Positions 28,701-45,870 of a stretch of 64,000 bases of DNA are shown one piece after another (the first letter of the stretch is position 1; every line of letters begins with the position of its first letter). Both the position numbers and the translations under genes were made by a program. Below the pieces are notes generated by a model. It saw only the letters and a list, made by a program, of their open reading frames with translations, was not told where the DNA came from and ran no database searches. The stretch is from Microscilla marina ATCC 23134 (lineage in GTDB: Bacteria > Bacteroidota > Bacteroidia > Cytophagales > Microscillaceae): contig NZ_AAWS01000047.1 in NCBI RefSeq assembly GCF_000169175.1, positions 1 through 64,000 on the forward strand, given 5' to 3'.

Positions 28701-28852
28701 GAACCCAAATGTACAATAAAGTCTATGCTGACTTTGCCGGGGCTCCGGTTACCTTTCCTCATTTGCAATTGCCCAAAGGCATATACATTATCAAGGTGAC
28801 CATCAACGATGGGGCTGGAGGAGTGAAAGAGCAACGGATTGTGATTCAGTAA
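19772..28852 (+). CDS. Giant T9SS-secreted repeat protein, 3026 aa
   Basis: Signal peptide MSKITNVLLVSWVFVLACALTTQA-Q. Residues about 30-1270 look like a long right-handed beta-rich region (repeated GGxLxVxGDLxLxxG and IxGNLNISGG phrases, as in beta-helix adhesins). Residues about 1273-2056 are some 20 units of about 38 residues of the type ITNxGSGYTSAPTVTITGGGGTGATATA. Two more units occur near 2463-2549. A second beta-rich stretch follows, then LPINLLSFEAKLIKNNQVKLDWVAQNEEEVKQYNVERS..., a domain common just before T9SS tails. The last ~80 residues (VYPNPATKTEDLQVLVP... GIYIIKVTIND... RIVIQ) are a type A sorting domain. It is probably a cell-surface adhesin or matrix protein, exported by Sec and then T9SS. 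No catalytic motif was seen. Confidence 0.9.
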   Translation: MSKITNVLLVSWVFVLACALTTQAQTVATWNPPSAGSTSGGFYSDLKEFNWLDPANWSWTVGGAGADPTNPAVPDNGIPDENTEVIIPAGTPVCWIPEDYTNYCIDKTTTPASPTVGNAPCAGNFEAVTRPTCKKITLNGGLYNQASLNNNNDTKSLYVKDVNGTSDGDFIIASGGVYLSEAFVTQVEGNFDLQAGGHLVVYNSDNSIQVSRDLTINGNITKQALITGRTLTFDFRGKESSIINGNHLTNRISTAQANVAPYMNFTHYYTYGAIDNLIISKIKNDPLNTAAADPTVSNHASFPILVGVMDNAGTGLTIGGSGNVTINGGALIVKNVTAGGFNLGASTFNGVDNWNWDIPASDINVRGKIFIANANVGTGTYTGSSLDLTGGSSDPRSICMHLGGNFEDLNIVEPSGSNGVRNGFYINGSRVSSRQDRRPTVVFNGVGDQDIRGINGVGTTFWLRDYNDNPTEGIGIAFPEVIINKAADKKVSINASSNLRIFGDLRLLSGIFDVNGRTFLFGDRSEANQYHGQTNANGDEINIYGTLNAPAGSVIKMNTGKQHRGTIMRVREGGLLKIMGTANNTNILIRDGRVGTYYRVGVYGGGKAAVVNTFIQQQAGRSNDFGLSGTNYATDASGSAGGNNSVGGFKTYFNASLLHFKENVLTGELELVDMNNPTFSNENPTTYDADYSSFSYCGFAGMGGSGAHLTINTGQKMRILNTGFGGNGGNTARNIVNNNTSGLVITVQNSSGQAGGVNGESKDGGSADDKVVWVSPTPVYWWGPPVARGYDQQWDTGSKGKSGSYGASGAGSATYISNDPYDSYYGSNPTLPNGSNTYLYHAALWSSADALGVSNVWSLNDLVWEPLPTGVVPGTAGNEDYTAYILARATRSCYVDGDYTLDGSIYVHHNGANNGVTRQSRRVLYFDNTTPHTMIVKGEIQNSSYSRDGRIYGGQATVQVGRDLFTQFAYFYPQTSHFIFNGTSSQEIRIGTNSFYNLTINKASGSARIQGIGGISGANKNTLVVRKDFVLQSGEVALVSSTPMLVMGDFIQTSGHFKFIKSPVNIQGNLNISGGTNDDGGTSTAALIFTPSDNTTRTIKTSGLKFSNIYFNKKIYKSGKVGHGSDTNPFGTTSNKDIKGEKAKNEPSDVVYQVTDDLESLNGIEIDENRILEVVGGKKIISADMIIRNKGQLITGTATQIQVKSGGKLHIQDGGFMQLMGSFSEYTKLTHDPSSSGTYKFDVDGTLKARYFLLEYMDKDGVNIDANAKILSPGTIVQGGGGENYSNSPDVTIAGGGGLGATASATVATSITKIDLADGGLGYLTNPTVTITGAATTPATATASIAGGVTGIYITNPGGGYSEMPTVAFTNGAGVSAVGKVTGSLDVLNITNAGSGYTTAPEVSLVDVSGATLVAGTATATITGSVTAISIDNAGAGYATFPTATIDNTATNGTGLAVTLKGSVTGITNLVGGSGYSSATATISAPGGGGTTATATVNISAGSLTEMTVTAGGTSYLSSGNGTFEVLISGGSGTGATATASVLNGEIYEIEITNEGTGYASADVLTLDFATNGGGGSGATATYTIISAGSITGLTFTNSGSGYTSIPTITLSGDGSGASADATLSITEVDITSGGSGYNSTPTIALDDPTTIEGVTTELTPVISGTVTALTIGSEGSGYEKAPLVYIASPAANADATVAGGTITGVTITSGGSGYTSAPSVTFVDPNGTGTGATGTATIVNGVVTAINITSTGNNTYSDLTRVIIGTPAGLTNAIGEAKLKVTRGIMSNPGTNYTGGFDLIFTGGTPTVAATAKATLSVTSISLTNPGDGYTAAPTITLGAPDAPVSFPGGVGDAVTATASAATIGSISSFTVTNNGTGYTNTPFVIIKDATGRGAEGQAILGATTIDRVLVLDGGKNYTATPTVTITGGGGTGATATAAISSGEVTNVVINNGGSGYGAPPTITFTGGGGTGATAEAVVIGGKVVSIGMVNYGSGYTSAPTITISGGGGTGATATAEIGGRVISVTLTNPGSGYTGTPAVEFSGGGATAISAIAAAYLTPTTLVDIVPTTSKVYPVATFSDAIFTNATEDGSTFITFPQEYSVYRNGSNDYSTTDALPANVTHDYSTSPAVDTIYNAVFPSNPDPILTFTNAPSNVKRTGTSNDPRNRVVFKDAIGTFSGEDFDSENTIADNNDNSLGINPFGIKTDSMILWREPNVVRWDGGLTGAGTAWNDPTNWRPDRVPGPGDFVIIDHRLLFLQWNLLKGPPDVISPSNFVVDMNLSSNTNPITCRSLTIETLLPEPNDGSQRNPITIEVNQPLTVLENLTISKDATVKVMNNTATISVGGSWSNEGTFEHGNGTVKFNQPFTRVIKAITSSVSFDPNTQIGIPAANLNAFYNLEIEDGTTDLNSYIRVENDLTIKNTNTKLRSSNNPIELWGNWQNEGTFSPDNGTVYFGSNLTQTIGTGYRTEATATAALTGDAVSSTFTITNPGDKYAQTPIVMIEGGGGTGATATATINGDGQLTGITLDTPGSGYTSAPTVRLVAPETEKFFNMTVSKIVNNVVTKNRIEIQDAGALSLREQKVISSENAEVILGLNATWTRVNGYVDGPVGSVYNSASSLTSKSYPVGKGDVYPGDNNGVRLDIQLTATPDAPTSSVMYIVEQFESAAVDGRTFPPDPSDNINYLSRSRHWKVRQARYPNINSAFPTVLGAEVNFSKAVIGLPFSGANERADDQIAALLAANPGLPLGTMVNDLLLSQLDELRILKDPGLTGPANATNNAKGLLAETPTLDTNGERWSNIGGGVNDITNFSIGAATLVSNEFTSLGTGTFTLGWNYTALPINLLSFEAKLIKNNQVKLDWVAQNEEEVKQYNVERSTDGVNFKTIGTIKASESEQSTQKYEMIDPSPEIGLNYYRIRQVQAHESSRRSRMVEVKVAVARKMEVYPNPATKTEDLQVLVPADAGDKVAVSILDIQGTQMYNKVYADFAGAPVTFPHLQLPKGIYIIKVTINDGAGGVKEQRIVIQ
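23590..25945 (+). repeat. About 20 in-frame Gly/Thr-rich repeats in the giant gene
   Basis: Units of 35-45 codons share GxGYxxxPxVxIxGGGGTGATATA. The most regular copies are at the end (25490-25900), where neighbouring units share long identical stretches. Earlier units are longer and more varied (VDP, DDP and IASP insertions). This gradient suggests recent expansion at the 3' end. No cysteine is present in the block. Confidence 0.85.
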
Positions 28853-28872
28853 AAAAACTGATTTTTGGAATG

Positions 28873-28912
28873 AAAACGCGTCTTCTTCTTGATAAGAGGG
28901 CGCGTTTTTCTT
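28873..28912 (+). terminator. Terminator after the giant gene
   Basis: Stem AAAACGCG (28873-28880) / CGCGTTTT (28901-28908) with a partly paired tct/aga interior, followed by T. It lies 20 bp past the stop. Confidence 0.75.
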
Positions 28913-29060
28913 TGGTAGTACCGTCATCGCCTCAGATCGTGTCTCGACGAGCTGATCGAAGCTTTGAAAAAGCATTGTTCCCAGGCTCTGTGACGGGGCG
29001 ATTTAGCTTTGCTGAGCACCGACATTCATCGGTATCTAAGGACTCGTAAACTCGGTTGTA

Positions 29061-30867
29061 GAGATACAAACCAAGGCGAAAAAAAAAGTAGTTAGTCCAA
29101 CCTGATAGGATTCTAAAAAATCTGATCAGGTTTTCAGGGACAACTCAAGCCAAAAATAGCCTCCTCGTGTTGGCATTAAGGCTTCAGTCTGATCATTCCA
29201 AGCCACATACCTACCCAAAAACTTGTACACCAGTCGTTTTTCAAAGTCTTAGGTTAGCATTGCTCAGGTCACCCTGCGGTAAGACCTTCGCGGGAGGTAA
29301 TTGTTTAAGTTGAATTTGGAGATACAAACCAAGGCGAAAAAAAAAGTAGTTAGTCCAACCTGATAGGATTCTAAAAAATCTGATCAGGTTTTCAGGGACA
29401 ACTCAAGCCAAAAATAGCCTCCTCGTGTTGGCATTAAGGCTTCAGTCTGATCATTCCAAGCCACATACCTACCCAAAAACTTGTACACCAGTCGTTTTTC
29501 AAAGTCTTAGGTTAGCATTGCTCAGGTCACCCTGCGGTAAGACCTTCGCGGGAGGTAATTGTTTAAGTTGAATTTGGAGATACAAACCGAGGCGAAAAAA
29601 AAAGTAGTTAGTCCAACCTGATAGGATTCTAAAAAATCTGATCAGGTTTTCAGGGACAACTCAAGCCAAAAATAGCCTCCTCGTGTTGGCATTAAGGCTT
29701 CAGTCTGATCATTCCAAGCCACATACCTACCCAAAAACTTGTACACCAGTCGTTTTTCAAAGTCTTAGGTTAGCATTGCTCAGGTCACCCTGCGGTAAGA
29801 CCTTCGCGGGAGGTAATTGTTTAAGTTGAATTTGGAGATACAAACCGAGGCGAAAAAAAAAAGTAGTTAGTCCAACCTGATAGGATTCTAAAAAATCTGA
29901 TCAGGTTTTCAGGGACAACTCAAGCCAAAAATAGCCTCCTCGTGTTGGCATTAAGGCTTCAGTCTGATCATTCCAAGCCACATACCTACCCAAAAACTTG
30001 TACACCAGTCGTTTTTCAAAGTCTTAGGTTAGCATTGCTCAGGTCACCCTGCGGTAAGACCTTCGCGGGAGGTAATTGTTTAAGTTGAATTTGGAGATAC
30101 AAACCGAGGCGAAAAAAAAAGTAGTTAGTCCAACCTGACAGGATTCTAAAAAACCTGATCAGGTTTTCAGGGACAACTCAAGCCAAAAATAGCCTCCTCG
30201 TGTTGGCATTAAGGCTTCAGTCTGATCATTCCAAGCCACATACCTACCCAAAAACTTGTACACCAGTCGTTTTTCAAAGTCTTAGGTTAGCATTGCTCAG
30301 GTCACCCTGCGGTAAGACCTTCGCGGGAGGTAATTGTTTAAGTTGAATTTGGAGATACAAACCGAGGCGAAAAAAAAAGTAGTTAGTCCAACCTGACAGG
30401 ATTCTAAAAAACCTGATCAGGTTTTCAGGGACAACGCAAGCCAAAAATAGCCTCCTCGTGTTGGTATTAAGGCTTCAGTCTGATCATTCCAAGTCACATA
30501 CCTACCCAAAAACTTGTACACCAGTCGTTTTTCAAAGTTTTAGGTTAACATTGCTCAGGTCACCCTGCGGTAAGACCTTCGCGGGAGGTAATTGTTTAAG
30601 TTGAATTTGGAGATACAAACCGAGGCGAAAAAAAAAGTAGTTAGTCCAACCTGACAGGATTCTAAAAAACCTGATCAGGTTTTCAGGGACAACGCAAGCC
30701 AAAAATAGCCTCCTCGTGTTGGTATTAAGGCTTCAGTCTGATCATTCCAAGTCACATACCTACCCAAAAACTTGTACACCAGTCGTTTTTCAAAGTTTTA
30801 GGTTAACATTGCTCAGGTCACCCTGCGGTAAGACCTTCGCGGGAGGTAATTGTTTAAGTTGAATTTG
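29061..30867. repeat. Seven tandem 258-bp units (non-coding array)
   Basis: Units start at 29061, 29319, 29577, 29835, 30094, 30352 and 30610 (period 258; unit 4 is 259 because of one extra A in its A-run). Identity between units is very high. Each holds a hairpin (AACCTGAt..AGG / CCTG..ATCAGGTT) and a second weak stem (CCCTGCG..CGCGGG). Variants form a staircase: a change near base 9 separates units 1-2 from 3-7; two hairpin changes mark units 5-7; five further changes mark units 6-7, which are identical to each other. No ORF spans the units and no protein signal is present. Confidence 0.95.
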
Positions 30868-31100
30868 CTTGGATGGACACACACCAGTTTCAACCTGGCA
30901 GGATTCTATGACAACGCTAAAAAATCTGGTCAGGTTTTCAGAGAGTTGTCGACCTACAAAGTTGTCGTCCAAAGTGTTGCTATTAAAGCACTAACCAAAC
31001 CAACACTTGCCTTTTAAGTTTCGAACTAAATTACTCAGGTCATTATTCGGTAAAAATCCTCGTTAGGGGACAGACTCGGTGTAAGGACCGACGACTTGTC
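30868..31100. repeat. Decayed eighth unit of the 258-bp array
   Basis: Recognisable blocks of the unit remain in order: aacctggcaggattct, tctggtcaggttttcag, acaacgc, ttactcaggtcat..cggtaa and tcctcg..aggg. It is heavily changed and has an insertion in the hairpin loop. It lies between the array and the xdh promoter. Confidence 0.7.
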
Positions 31101-31150
31101 GCTTGAAGCTTTTTGCTCCTATGAGGGCACTTAACTAAAAATCTTTATTT

Positions 31151-31183
31151 TTTTGAATTTAGAGACTGCTTTACGTAATTTTG
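31151..31183 (+). promoter_or_regulatory. Promoter of the xdh operon
   Basis: TTTTG (31151-31155), a 20-bp spacer and TAATTTTG (31176-31183) match the Bacteroidota -33/-7 consensus. Transcription would begin about 70 nt before xdhA. Confidence 0.75.
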
Positions 31184-31262
31184 TAGGTTATACCAGGGCA
31201 TTCACCCTAAGTTTTGCGCCGAACCCTTTTTGACAAAAAACACAGGATCAGAAAAATACTAC

Positions 31263-32681
31263 ATGATAGAATTTATATTAAACGACACCTCTATAGCTAC
31301 CCCCGCAGCTGTAGGGATTCCATTGCTCGATTTTATCCGTTACCAGCAGCACCTGTCGGGTACCAAGATAGGCTGCCGCGAAGGTGATTGCGGGGCTTGT
31401 ACAGTGTTGGTAGGCACCCTGCACAACGATGGTATGCACTACCAGTCTATGACCTCCTGCATTACACCATTGGGCAACGCTCAAGGCAAACACATAGTAA
31501 CTGTAGAAGGGCTCAATCTACCCCAGGGACAGCTCAATCAGGTGCAACAGGCAATGGTAGACGAAGGGGGCACCCAGTGTGGTTTTTGTACTGCGGGTTT
31601 TGTGGTTTCTCTGGGTGGCCATTGCCTGAGCCATCAATCTTCAGATTATTCAAAGGCGTTGGCAGCAGTAGATGGCAATATATGCCGTTGTACTGGTTAT
31701 AAATCTATCGAGAGGGCTATTCATACCATTGACGAAAAGCTTCAGGCAAAAACAGCGGGTCAGTCTTTGGGCTGGTTGGTGGCGCAAGGTTTTCTGCCTG
31801 CCTATTTTACCGACATTGCCAACCGCATGCAAGGCTTAAGTTTGCCTGAACCCCCTATCACACAATCTACCGATCTTGATGGGCACTACATAGGTGGGGG
31901 CACCGATTTGTATGTGCAAAAGCCTGAAGAAATGATGCGTTCAAACTTATATTTGATGTTTGACCAAGAGGCATTAAACAAGATTGAGGTCAAGCATGAA
32001 CGCTGCTATATAGGGGCGGCAAGCTCGGTTTCAGATGTTTGGCAGTCAGAGATAATGCAAGCCCACTTTCCACGGCTAAGCCAATACCTTAAGCTGGTAT
32101 CGTCTACCCAAATACGCAACATGGGCACCATAGCGGGCAACTTGGTCAATGCCTCACCCATTGGCGATTTGAGCATTTTTTTGCTTGCCCTCAATGCTAC
32201 TCTGGTGTTAAAACACCAAGACCAAACCCGCGAAGTGCCATTGCGCGATTTTTATAAAGGGTACAAAATCCTGGACAAGCAACCCACAGAGTATGTCATA
32301 AGTATTTATTTTGACTTGCCCACTGCCCATACAGCTTTCAATTTTGAGAAAGTAAGCAAGCGTACTCACCTTGACATTGCCAGTGTAAACGCGGCAATAC
32401 AGCTCAAAACCGAAGGAATGTTGATCAAAGAAGCCCACTTGTCGGCAGGAGGGGTAGCCCCTGTTCCTCTTTATTTGGCGAAAGCCGCCCAATACCTGAA
32501 GGGCAAAACCCTGAGTGCTGAAGTAGTAAAAGAAGCAGCTAGAATAGCCAATGATGAGGTAGCCCCTATCAGCGATGTGCGTGGTACGGCTACCTACAAA
32601 CGCTTATTGTTGCGCCAACTGATTTATGCGCATTTTATCACCATTTTTGAAGGTACTTTAACCCTGGAGGATTTAGTATGA
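31263..32681 (+). CDS. xdhA: Xanthine dehydrogenase, FeS/FAD subunit
   Basis: A 472-residue subunit carrying electrons from the molybdenum site to FAD/NAD. The N-terminal ferredoxin-type [2Fe-2S] cluster uses C38, C43, C46 and C66 (CREGDCGAC). The second helical [2Fe-2S] domain uses C106, C109, C141 and C143 (QCGFC.. CRCTGY). The FAD-binding domain starts near residue 205 (HYIGGGTDLYVQ), with RNMGTIAGNLVNASPIGD around the flavin, and the CO-dehydrogenase flavoprotein C-terminal domain follows. It is full length for a fused FeS/FAD XdhA. ATG 31263 is preferred over the upstream TTG at 31230. It overlaps xdhB by 4 bp (ATGA), indicating translational coupling. It serves purine catabolism (hypoxanthine to xanthine to urate). 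Confidence 0.95.
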   Translation: MIEFILNDTSIATPAAVGIPLLDFIRYQQHLSGTKIGCREGDCGACTVLVGTLHNDGMHYQSMTSCITPLGNAQGKHIVTVEGLNLPQGQLNQVQQAMVDEGGTQCGFCTAGFVVSLGGHCLSHQSSDYSKALAAVDGNICRCTGYKSIERAIHTIDEKLQAKTAGQSLGWLVAQGFLPAYFTDIANRMQGLSLPEPPITQSTDLDGHYIGGGTDLYVQKPEEMMRSNLYLMFDQEALNKIEVKHERCYIGAASSVSDVWQSEIMQAHFPRLSQYLKLVSSTQIRNMGTIAGNLVNASPIGDLSIFLLALNATLVLKHQDQTREVPLRDFYKGYKILDKQPTEYVISIYFDLPTAHTAFNFEKVSKRTHLDIASVNAAIQLKTEGMLIKEAHLSAGGVAPVPLYLAKAAQYLKGKTLSAEVVKEAARIANDEVAPISDVRGTATYKRLLLRQLIYAHFITIFEGTLTLEDLV

Positions 32682-45619: not shown

Positions 45620-45870
45620 TGATAATTTAAGGCTAAAGGCTCCATACAAACAGTTAAACAAAGGCTAAAAGCTAAAGGCTCATCGTAGCTAAAGGCTAAA
45701 GCTCATCATAGCTCAAGAAAAAGCTAAAAGCTCCCTAAAAACAGCCAAAAAAAAGCTAAAGGCTAAAAGCTCATCATAGCTCAAGAAAAGGCTAAAGGCT
45801 AAAAGCTCCCTACAAACAGCCAAAAAAAAGCTAAAGGCTAAAAGCCAATCAAAGCTCAAAGAAAAAGCAA
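45620..45870. repeat. Low-complexity gctaaa tandem repeats (75-bp period)
   Basis: Repeats of aaaggctaaaagctc and catcatagctcaagaaaa; the block ctccctaaaaacagcc (about 45731) recurs as ctccctacaaacagcc (about 45806), a 75-bp period. The rest of the gap (45181-45619) has degenerate gggagctctgngaagct and attacgaat motifs like those in other gaps. No gene. Confidence 0.75.

Follow-up and report, generated by a model that had tools for sequence, protein, structure and literature searches.

The tandem array and its surroundings

The window, a 64,000-nucleotide stretch of a contig of Microscilla marina (genome G000), contains a tandem array of seven 258-bp units at positions 29061-30867 (+ strand). 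Its neighbors are a gene of 3026 aa that carries a Por secretion tail and a set of genes with xanthine-dehydrogenase-type domains (xdh). Tandem Repeats Finder gives a period of 258 bp, 7.0 copies and 99% matches over this span, and inside it no ORF reaches 100 aa, in agreement with the initial annotation, which described a long, regular and non-coding array of 258-bp units. Alignment of the units places their starts at 29061, 29319, 29577, 29835, 30094, 30352 and 30610 (+); unit 4 has one additional A and is 259 bp long. Whole units are 97-100% alike in pairwise comparison and vary in nine columns. Unit 1 is identical to unit 2, and unit 6 to unit 7, the latter as first described. Unit 5 was correctly recognized as a hybrid: it has the state of units 6-7 at columns 47 and 62, and that of units 1-4 at columns 86-198.

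Composition of the array unit

Read from its sequence, the array unit is a composite in which the end of one dispersed repeat, B (~24 bp), is joined to a second, mosaic dispersed repeat. A longer form of repeat B, ~168 bp, lies at 28917-29084 (+), where query positions 13-180 were matched elsewhere in G000 and in the congener, 'Uncultured Microscilla sp.' (G001). Unit 1 begins with the last ~24 bp of this form (29061-29084), which return at the start of every array unit. Repeat B has at least 46 further matches in G000, the window locus excluded (40 of 258 candidates were scored, making this list a lower bound), and 46 in the congener. The matches in both Microscilla genomes often cover just one of the two halves of B.

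The mosaic repeat consists of hairpin C, hairpin H1, an unproven hairpin H2, a 42-bp core and a tail. In unit 1, hairpin C (AACCTGATAGGATT..AATCTGATCAGGTT), the first of these modules, lies at 29099-29133 (+); it was read in the sequence, is present in folds and is repeated in each unit. The H1 module follows at 29167-29208 (+) and is a decayed form of a hairpin, GTGTTGGTCT..AGACCAACAC, of other loci. The 42-bp core, CATTGCTCAGGTCACCCTGCGGTAAGACCTTCGCGGGAGGTA, occupies 29258-29299 (+), and the cores of units 2-7 start at 29516, 29774, 30033, 30291, 30549 and 30807 (+). A 37-bp stretch of the core occurs 7 times in the window; the number expected from 100 shuffles is 0. A second type of 3' end was seen at L023, L024, L025, L034, L041, L045, L048, L124 and L241: the core stops after GGTAAGA and is followed by GTTTAATTACGAA-like sequence.

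The segment next to xdh had been counted as an eighth, decayed unit of the array. It is instead a neighboring copy of the mosaic repeat, at 30868-31090 (+; aligned part 30891-31053, outer limits set by eye). It resembles the array unit only from unit position 38 to ~222, i.e. from hairpin C to the core, with a local alignment score of 36 against a maximum of 21.5 in 100 shuffles. Because the first ~37 bp, and with them the B-derived start, are missing, this copy is not an array unit. The motif 'acaacgc', which it was thought to share with units 6-7, sits in an 11-bp stretch within a hairpin loop (..GGATTCTATGACAACGCTAAAAAATC..) that has no counterpart in the array units, whereas in units 6-7 it is located 3' of the hairpin. 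The right-hand motif is thus not the state of units 6-7; the two occurrences are coincidental rather than homologous. A loop like that of the right-hand copy is also found at L030 and L046.

Distribution of the core and other tandem arrays

G000 contains 115 copies of the exact core pattern and 0 of the reversed one, and a slightly different pattern finds 18 cores in the congener. The exact pattern is absent from all 394 other genomes drawn from the phylum. BLAST with the array unit against 57 genomes, its own included, gave matches in two, both of this genus (in its own genome 13 of 127 candidates were scored, and 40 of 85 in another search, so that the matches there are a lower bound). A pattern scan of named genomes, which may leave out the window's own records, found eight stretches, all in 'Uncultured Microscilla sp.' The phages and plasmids searched gave no match. 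One viral pattern match (L240) differs from the 22-bp core consensus at 4 positions, gave no BLAST match to any module and was set aside as a chance occurrence. Among the genomes searched, the core-bearing family seems to be confined to this genus. It also appears to be undescribed: no Microscilla paper on these repeats was found in the open-licence literature, which is a weak test.

A weight matrix identifies 150 cores in 36 G000 loci, 1-14 per locus, with several cores at 25 loci and one at 11; this set excludes L049 (a duplicate of L039) and also L241 and L242, both of which carry cores. It takes in 114 of the 115 exact-pattern cores. At 20 of the 36 loci, counting that of the window, Tandem Repeats Finder reports arrays that cover the core; their periods run from 99 to 465 bp. 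Flanking ORFs (at least 110 aa) show no uniform arrangement: among 34 core loci, 11 pairs are divergent, 10 convergent, 8 both against the core and 5 both with it; L039 and L044 have no such ORF on one side. At L034 and L036 an additional long ORF lies between core groups, and ORFs of 116-160 aa lie inside the core span at L029, L032, L033, L039 and L044. At L034 (4469-5656) a DDE_Tnp_1 transposase gene separates two groups of core copies.

Tandem arrays are not limited to core loci. Forty 20-kb stretches of G000 (L160-L199), chosen at round-number positions and not at random, total 800 kb and contain 13 non-coding arrays with a period of at least 60, none with the core, plus four coding arrays. 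Non-coding long-unit arrays thus number ~16 per Mb in this sample. Examples are an array of 8.6 copies of a 169-bp unit at L177:1243-2672 and one of 3.5 copies of a 288-bp unit at L184:10099-11112. Runs of AATTACGAATT-like sequence occur in several of the core-free arrays. The array at L177:13634-13943 has the H1 module, but a core is absent even when 5 mismatches are allowed. In two genomes of the same order, sampled by ten 20-kb stretches each, one array (G018) and none (G042) were found. Twenty 20-kb stretches of the congener (400 kb) gave one array, a figure that is perhaps low because its contigs end in arrays. In the window itself, a tandem region of short units (23-75 bp, AAAGGCTAAAAGCTC-like) lies at 45664-45868, and a 36-bp array at L055:2449-2574 resembles it. 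The 13 core-free arrays and the H1 array without a core led us to reject the core as a general driver of amplification: amplification is independent of the core. Since the 13 sampled arrays are core-free, the tendency to amplify in tandem belongs to this genome at large rather than to this unit.

With one unit taken from each of 47 loci, the first 30 bp of the core are 91% identical (ungapped), compared to 63% for the 110 bp before it (global alignment), which suggests constraint on the core, though the loci were ascertained mostly through the core itself. Such constraint would be expected if the core were a binding site for a host protein of chromosome organization, replication or repair, and arrays were favored for clustering the sites. 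The uniform direction of cores within a locus (both directions in none of 49 loci) is in keeping with this explanation, which we nevertheless consider unlikely. At L241, a locus ascertained through H1 (40 of 77 candidates in its own genome were scored in that search, so that the list is a lower bound), the cores have 2-4 mismatches of 22. Arrays also form at 13 places without a core, and the congener has far fewer exact cores, though its assembly breaks at arrays. A related proposal is that the core is selected as a site that the cell, or some new enzyme, makes use of, and that in Microscilla the amplification of core arrays renews such sites. This would be a bacterial counterpart of fast-evolving satellite DNA, with a conserved site, locus-specific homogenized arrays and turnover between congeners; we regard this, too, as improbable.

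Comparison with the congener

Both flanks of the window array match G001 at 91% identity, but the orthologous site between them holds 713 bp in which only pieces of a size expected by chance resemble the window and no core is present at up to 5 mismatches; the array is absent. The match resumes at window position 31147. Its first 120 bp (31147-31266, +), which extend up to the start region of xdh and probably hold its promoter, are 91% identical. Conservation of these 120 bp at a site that lacks the array means that the array is no long-standing component of the xdh promoter. An element-like repeat, ACTTAAACAAAAATGG..CCTAGTATAC, is found in G000 at L046 (~2268-2480) and in G001 contig C127 (L118), in the region orthologous to the window array.

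At eight other loci common to the two genomes, the core counts in G000 and G001 are 9/2, 3/4, 5/2, 6/2, 7/1, 7/1, 2/1 and 1/1; five of the eight G001 counts are minima, the contig ending there. At 7 of the 13 G001 core loci, one side has no gene before the contig end. The lower numbers in the congener may therefore be partly technical, its assembly being fragmented. Of 19 G000 loci queried by their flanks, nine could be compared, each having its two flanks on a single G001 contig at clear identity, and none of the nine has a core there at up to 5 mismatches in 22; the flanks of the remaining 10 fell on different contigs, matched weakly or had no match. At L157 the G001 counterpart has hairpin C alone. 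At L052 a ~234-bp stretch with one copy, bounded by short imperfect repeats, TTGATA/TTGGTA (identified by eye), is present in G000 and missing in G001. A ~506-bp insertion at L047:2860-3365, with TTAGT at both ends and without the core, is also missing in G001.

Units of one array resemble each other more than they resemble the congener's units at five of the six testable G000 loci. The difference is clearest at two of them: identity within arrays is 0.90 and 0.92 at L022/L123 and 0.74 between species; at L035/L127 the values are 0.90 within and 0.76 between. The exception is L032/L128, where identity between species (0.777) exceeds that within G000 (0.737). On the G001 side, one of three testable loci is homogenized. 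The DNA neighboring the arrays is mostly ~86-97% identical between the congeners.

Dispersal over at least 36 loci, the absence of the core from the nine G001 sites compared by their flanks, and the L052 stretch with its short bounding repeats could be explained if the repeat were a non-autonomous MITE- or REP-like element mobilized by a host transposase, the tandem copies being products of transposition. We doubt this explanation. The ends of the repeat are not constant, as both the periods and the sequence at unit borders vary by locus, and in this comparison of two genomes the L052 difference could be a gain or a loss. A RAYT/IS200 system was considered and rejected: Y1 transposases are present in both genomes (13 matches, two of them overlapping), but of the five modules tested around them, core, H1, C and second 3' end gave nothing, and B gave one weak match (L145).

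Folding of the unit

Hairpin H1 offers some support for a structured RNA. Across loci, 91% of its cells are paired, 15 cells are changed on both sides (4.9 in shuffles; 0 of 500 shuffles as high), and the covariation score is 0.136 (0.074 in shuffles; 0 of 500 as high). The two measures least inflated by relatedness do not exceed chance: pairs changed on both sides number 2 against 1.9 in shuffles (403 of 500 as high), and further pair types 9 against 8.5 (272 of 500 as high). A further pairing variant is seen at L241. With moderate confidence, H1 is kept as a hairpin.

The unit is nonetheless very unlikely to specify a structured RNA that is expressed in repeats. The minus strand of unit 4 does give a better fold than its shuffles, of which 1 in 200 did as well (z -2.5), but the plus strand gives a z of only -1.3, H1 is decayed in the window array, and the H2 pairing proposed by hand is no better than shuffles. 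RNAalifold on 28 units finds structure in the core with no doubly changed pair. Alternative pairings of the core, including a pseudoknot, were judged by eye and set aside. G.T and A.C cells of H1 are equal in number, 9 and 9, and thus no transcribed strand stands out. Rfam gives no match in window 28850-31300 at E up to 1, and none at the gathering score at nine other loci. The suggestion that a protein-binding array or a repeated RNA serves this locus finds no support, in view of the orthologous site without the array, the mixed orientations of flanking ORFs, the lack of an Rfam match and the absence of strand bias; the core may still have some role in the cell at large.

Origin of the array

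An assembly artefact is the least credible explanation. A single contig holds five unit types, distinguished by the nine columns, with unique sequence on both sides, and Tandem Repeats Finder reports arrays that cover the core at a further 19 loci of G000. The contig ends at G001 core loci do indicate that such arrays trouble assembly, and the identical units 1-2 and 6-7 could have been miscounted.

We favor, with a probability of about three in four, the explanation that the array arose by local amplification of intergenic repeat DNA and is a product of copying and recombination without a locus-specific role. The starting state would have been a copy of the mosaic repeat (hairpin C, H1, H2, core and tail) adjoining a copy of repeat B. 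A tandem duplication, presumably illegitimate, would then have cut through B, taking in its last ~24 bp together with the mosaic copy. The left breakpoint lies within repeat B, and the two ends of the duplicated segment have no bases in common on either side of the break; the first step was thus probably illegitimate and the later ones homologous. Unequal homologous exchange and gene conversion could have carried the array to seven units and kept these nearly identical, a case of concerted evolution. We infer from sequence comparison that a duplication took place, that the exchange was of the RecA type and that the array has no role specific to its locus. On the scale of the genus, several repeat families would fill the intergenic DNA, stretches of which duplicate in tandem and then become homogenized.

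Unequal crossing-over or conversion, proposed in the initial annotation, fits the nested variants and the hybrid unit, and core counts do differ between the congeners (as in the 9/2 and 6/2 loci, though copies may be missing from the fragmented G001 assembly). The proposed growth from an old right end finds no support, given that the right-hand copy is no array unit and the left end has the intact junction with B; the order of the units gives no direction of growth. The array locus itself is probably of little consequence. The arrays as a class coincide with contig ends in G001 and differ between the congeners, and could serve as strain markers. They could also provide a natural system for how bacterial minisatellites start and spread.

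Comparison with known repeat systems

In the MIRU-VNTR minisatellites of mycobacteria, related units stand in tandem at numerous scattered loci, and their copy number varies. The Microscilla arrays are similar in all these respects; by description they are set apart by a longer unit, which is a patchwork cut through another dispersed repeat. BOX elements are modular, with an internal part in variable number. They are an intergenic repeat of Streptococcus pneumoniae (PMC3049150). The Microscilla repeat can be likened to them, again by description, as a modular intergenic repeat with a part in variable number, but its period takes in foreign flanking DNA.

The REP/BIME repeats with their RAYT transposases are described as high-copy intergenic hairpin repeats that form mosaics with other repeats (PMC3733652, PMC2817692). 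The Microscilla repeat is likewise high-copy, intergenic, hairpin-containing and mosaic with other repeats. It differs in that none of the 49 loci has cores of alternating orientation and no Y1 transposase gene was found flanked by core, H1 or C modules. A CRISPR array was rejected as well: whole units are nearly identical, and nothing unique lies between the cores.

The closest counterpart is the STAR elements of Staphylococcus. These are interspersed intergenic direct repeats with a short core and recurring spacers at tens of loci; each locus has one to several copies, the locus-specific sequence expands and contracts, the loci differ by species, and the function is given as unknown (PMC3532100). 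The Microscilla repeats correspond to this description in their intergenic direct core repeats and recurring spacers, at 36 G000 loci with 1-14 cores in one direction each. The 14-bp STAR core, with the consensus T(G/A/T)TGTTG(G/T)GGCCC(C/A) (PMC3532100), has no match in the window as TNTGTTGNGGCCC with up to 1 mismatch. The two systems belong to different phyla, and the Microscilla core is unrelated and 42 bp long. Its period, 258 bp here and up to 465 bp elsewhere, includes pieces of several dispersed modules. By the comparisons made, the array is not a BIME, a CRISPR array or a described RNA family; its architecture is that of STAR elements, built around an unrelated core.
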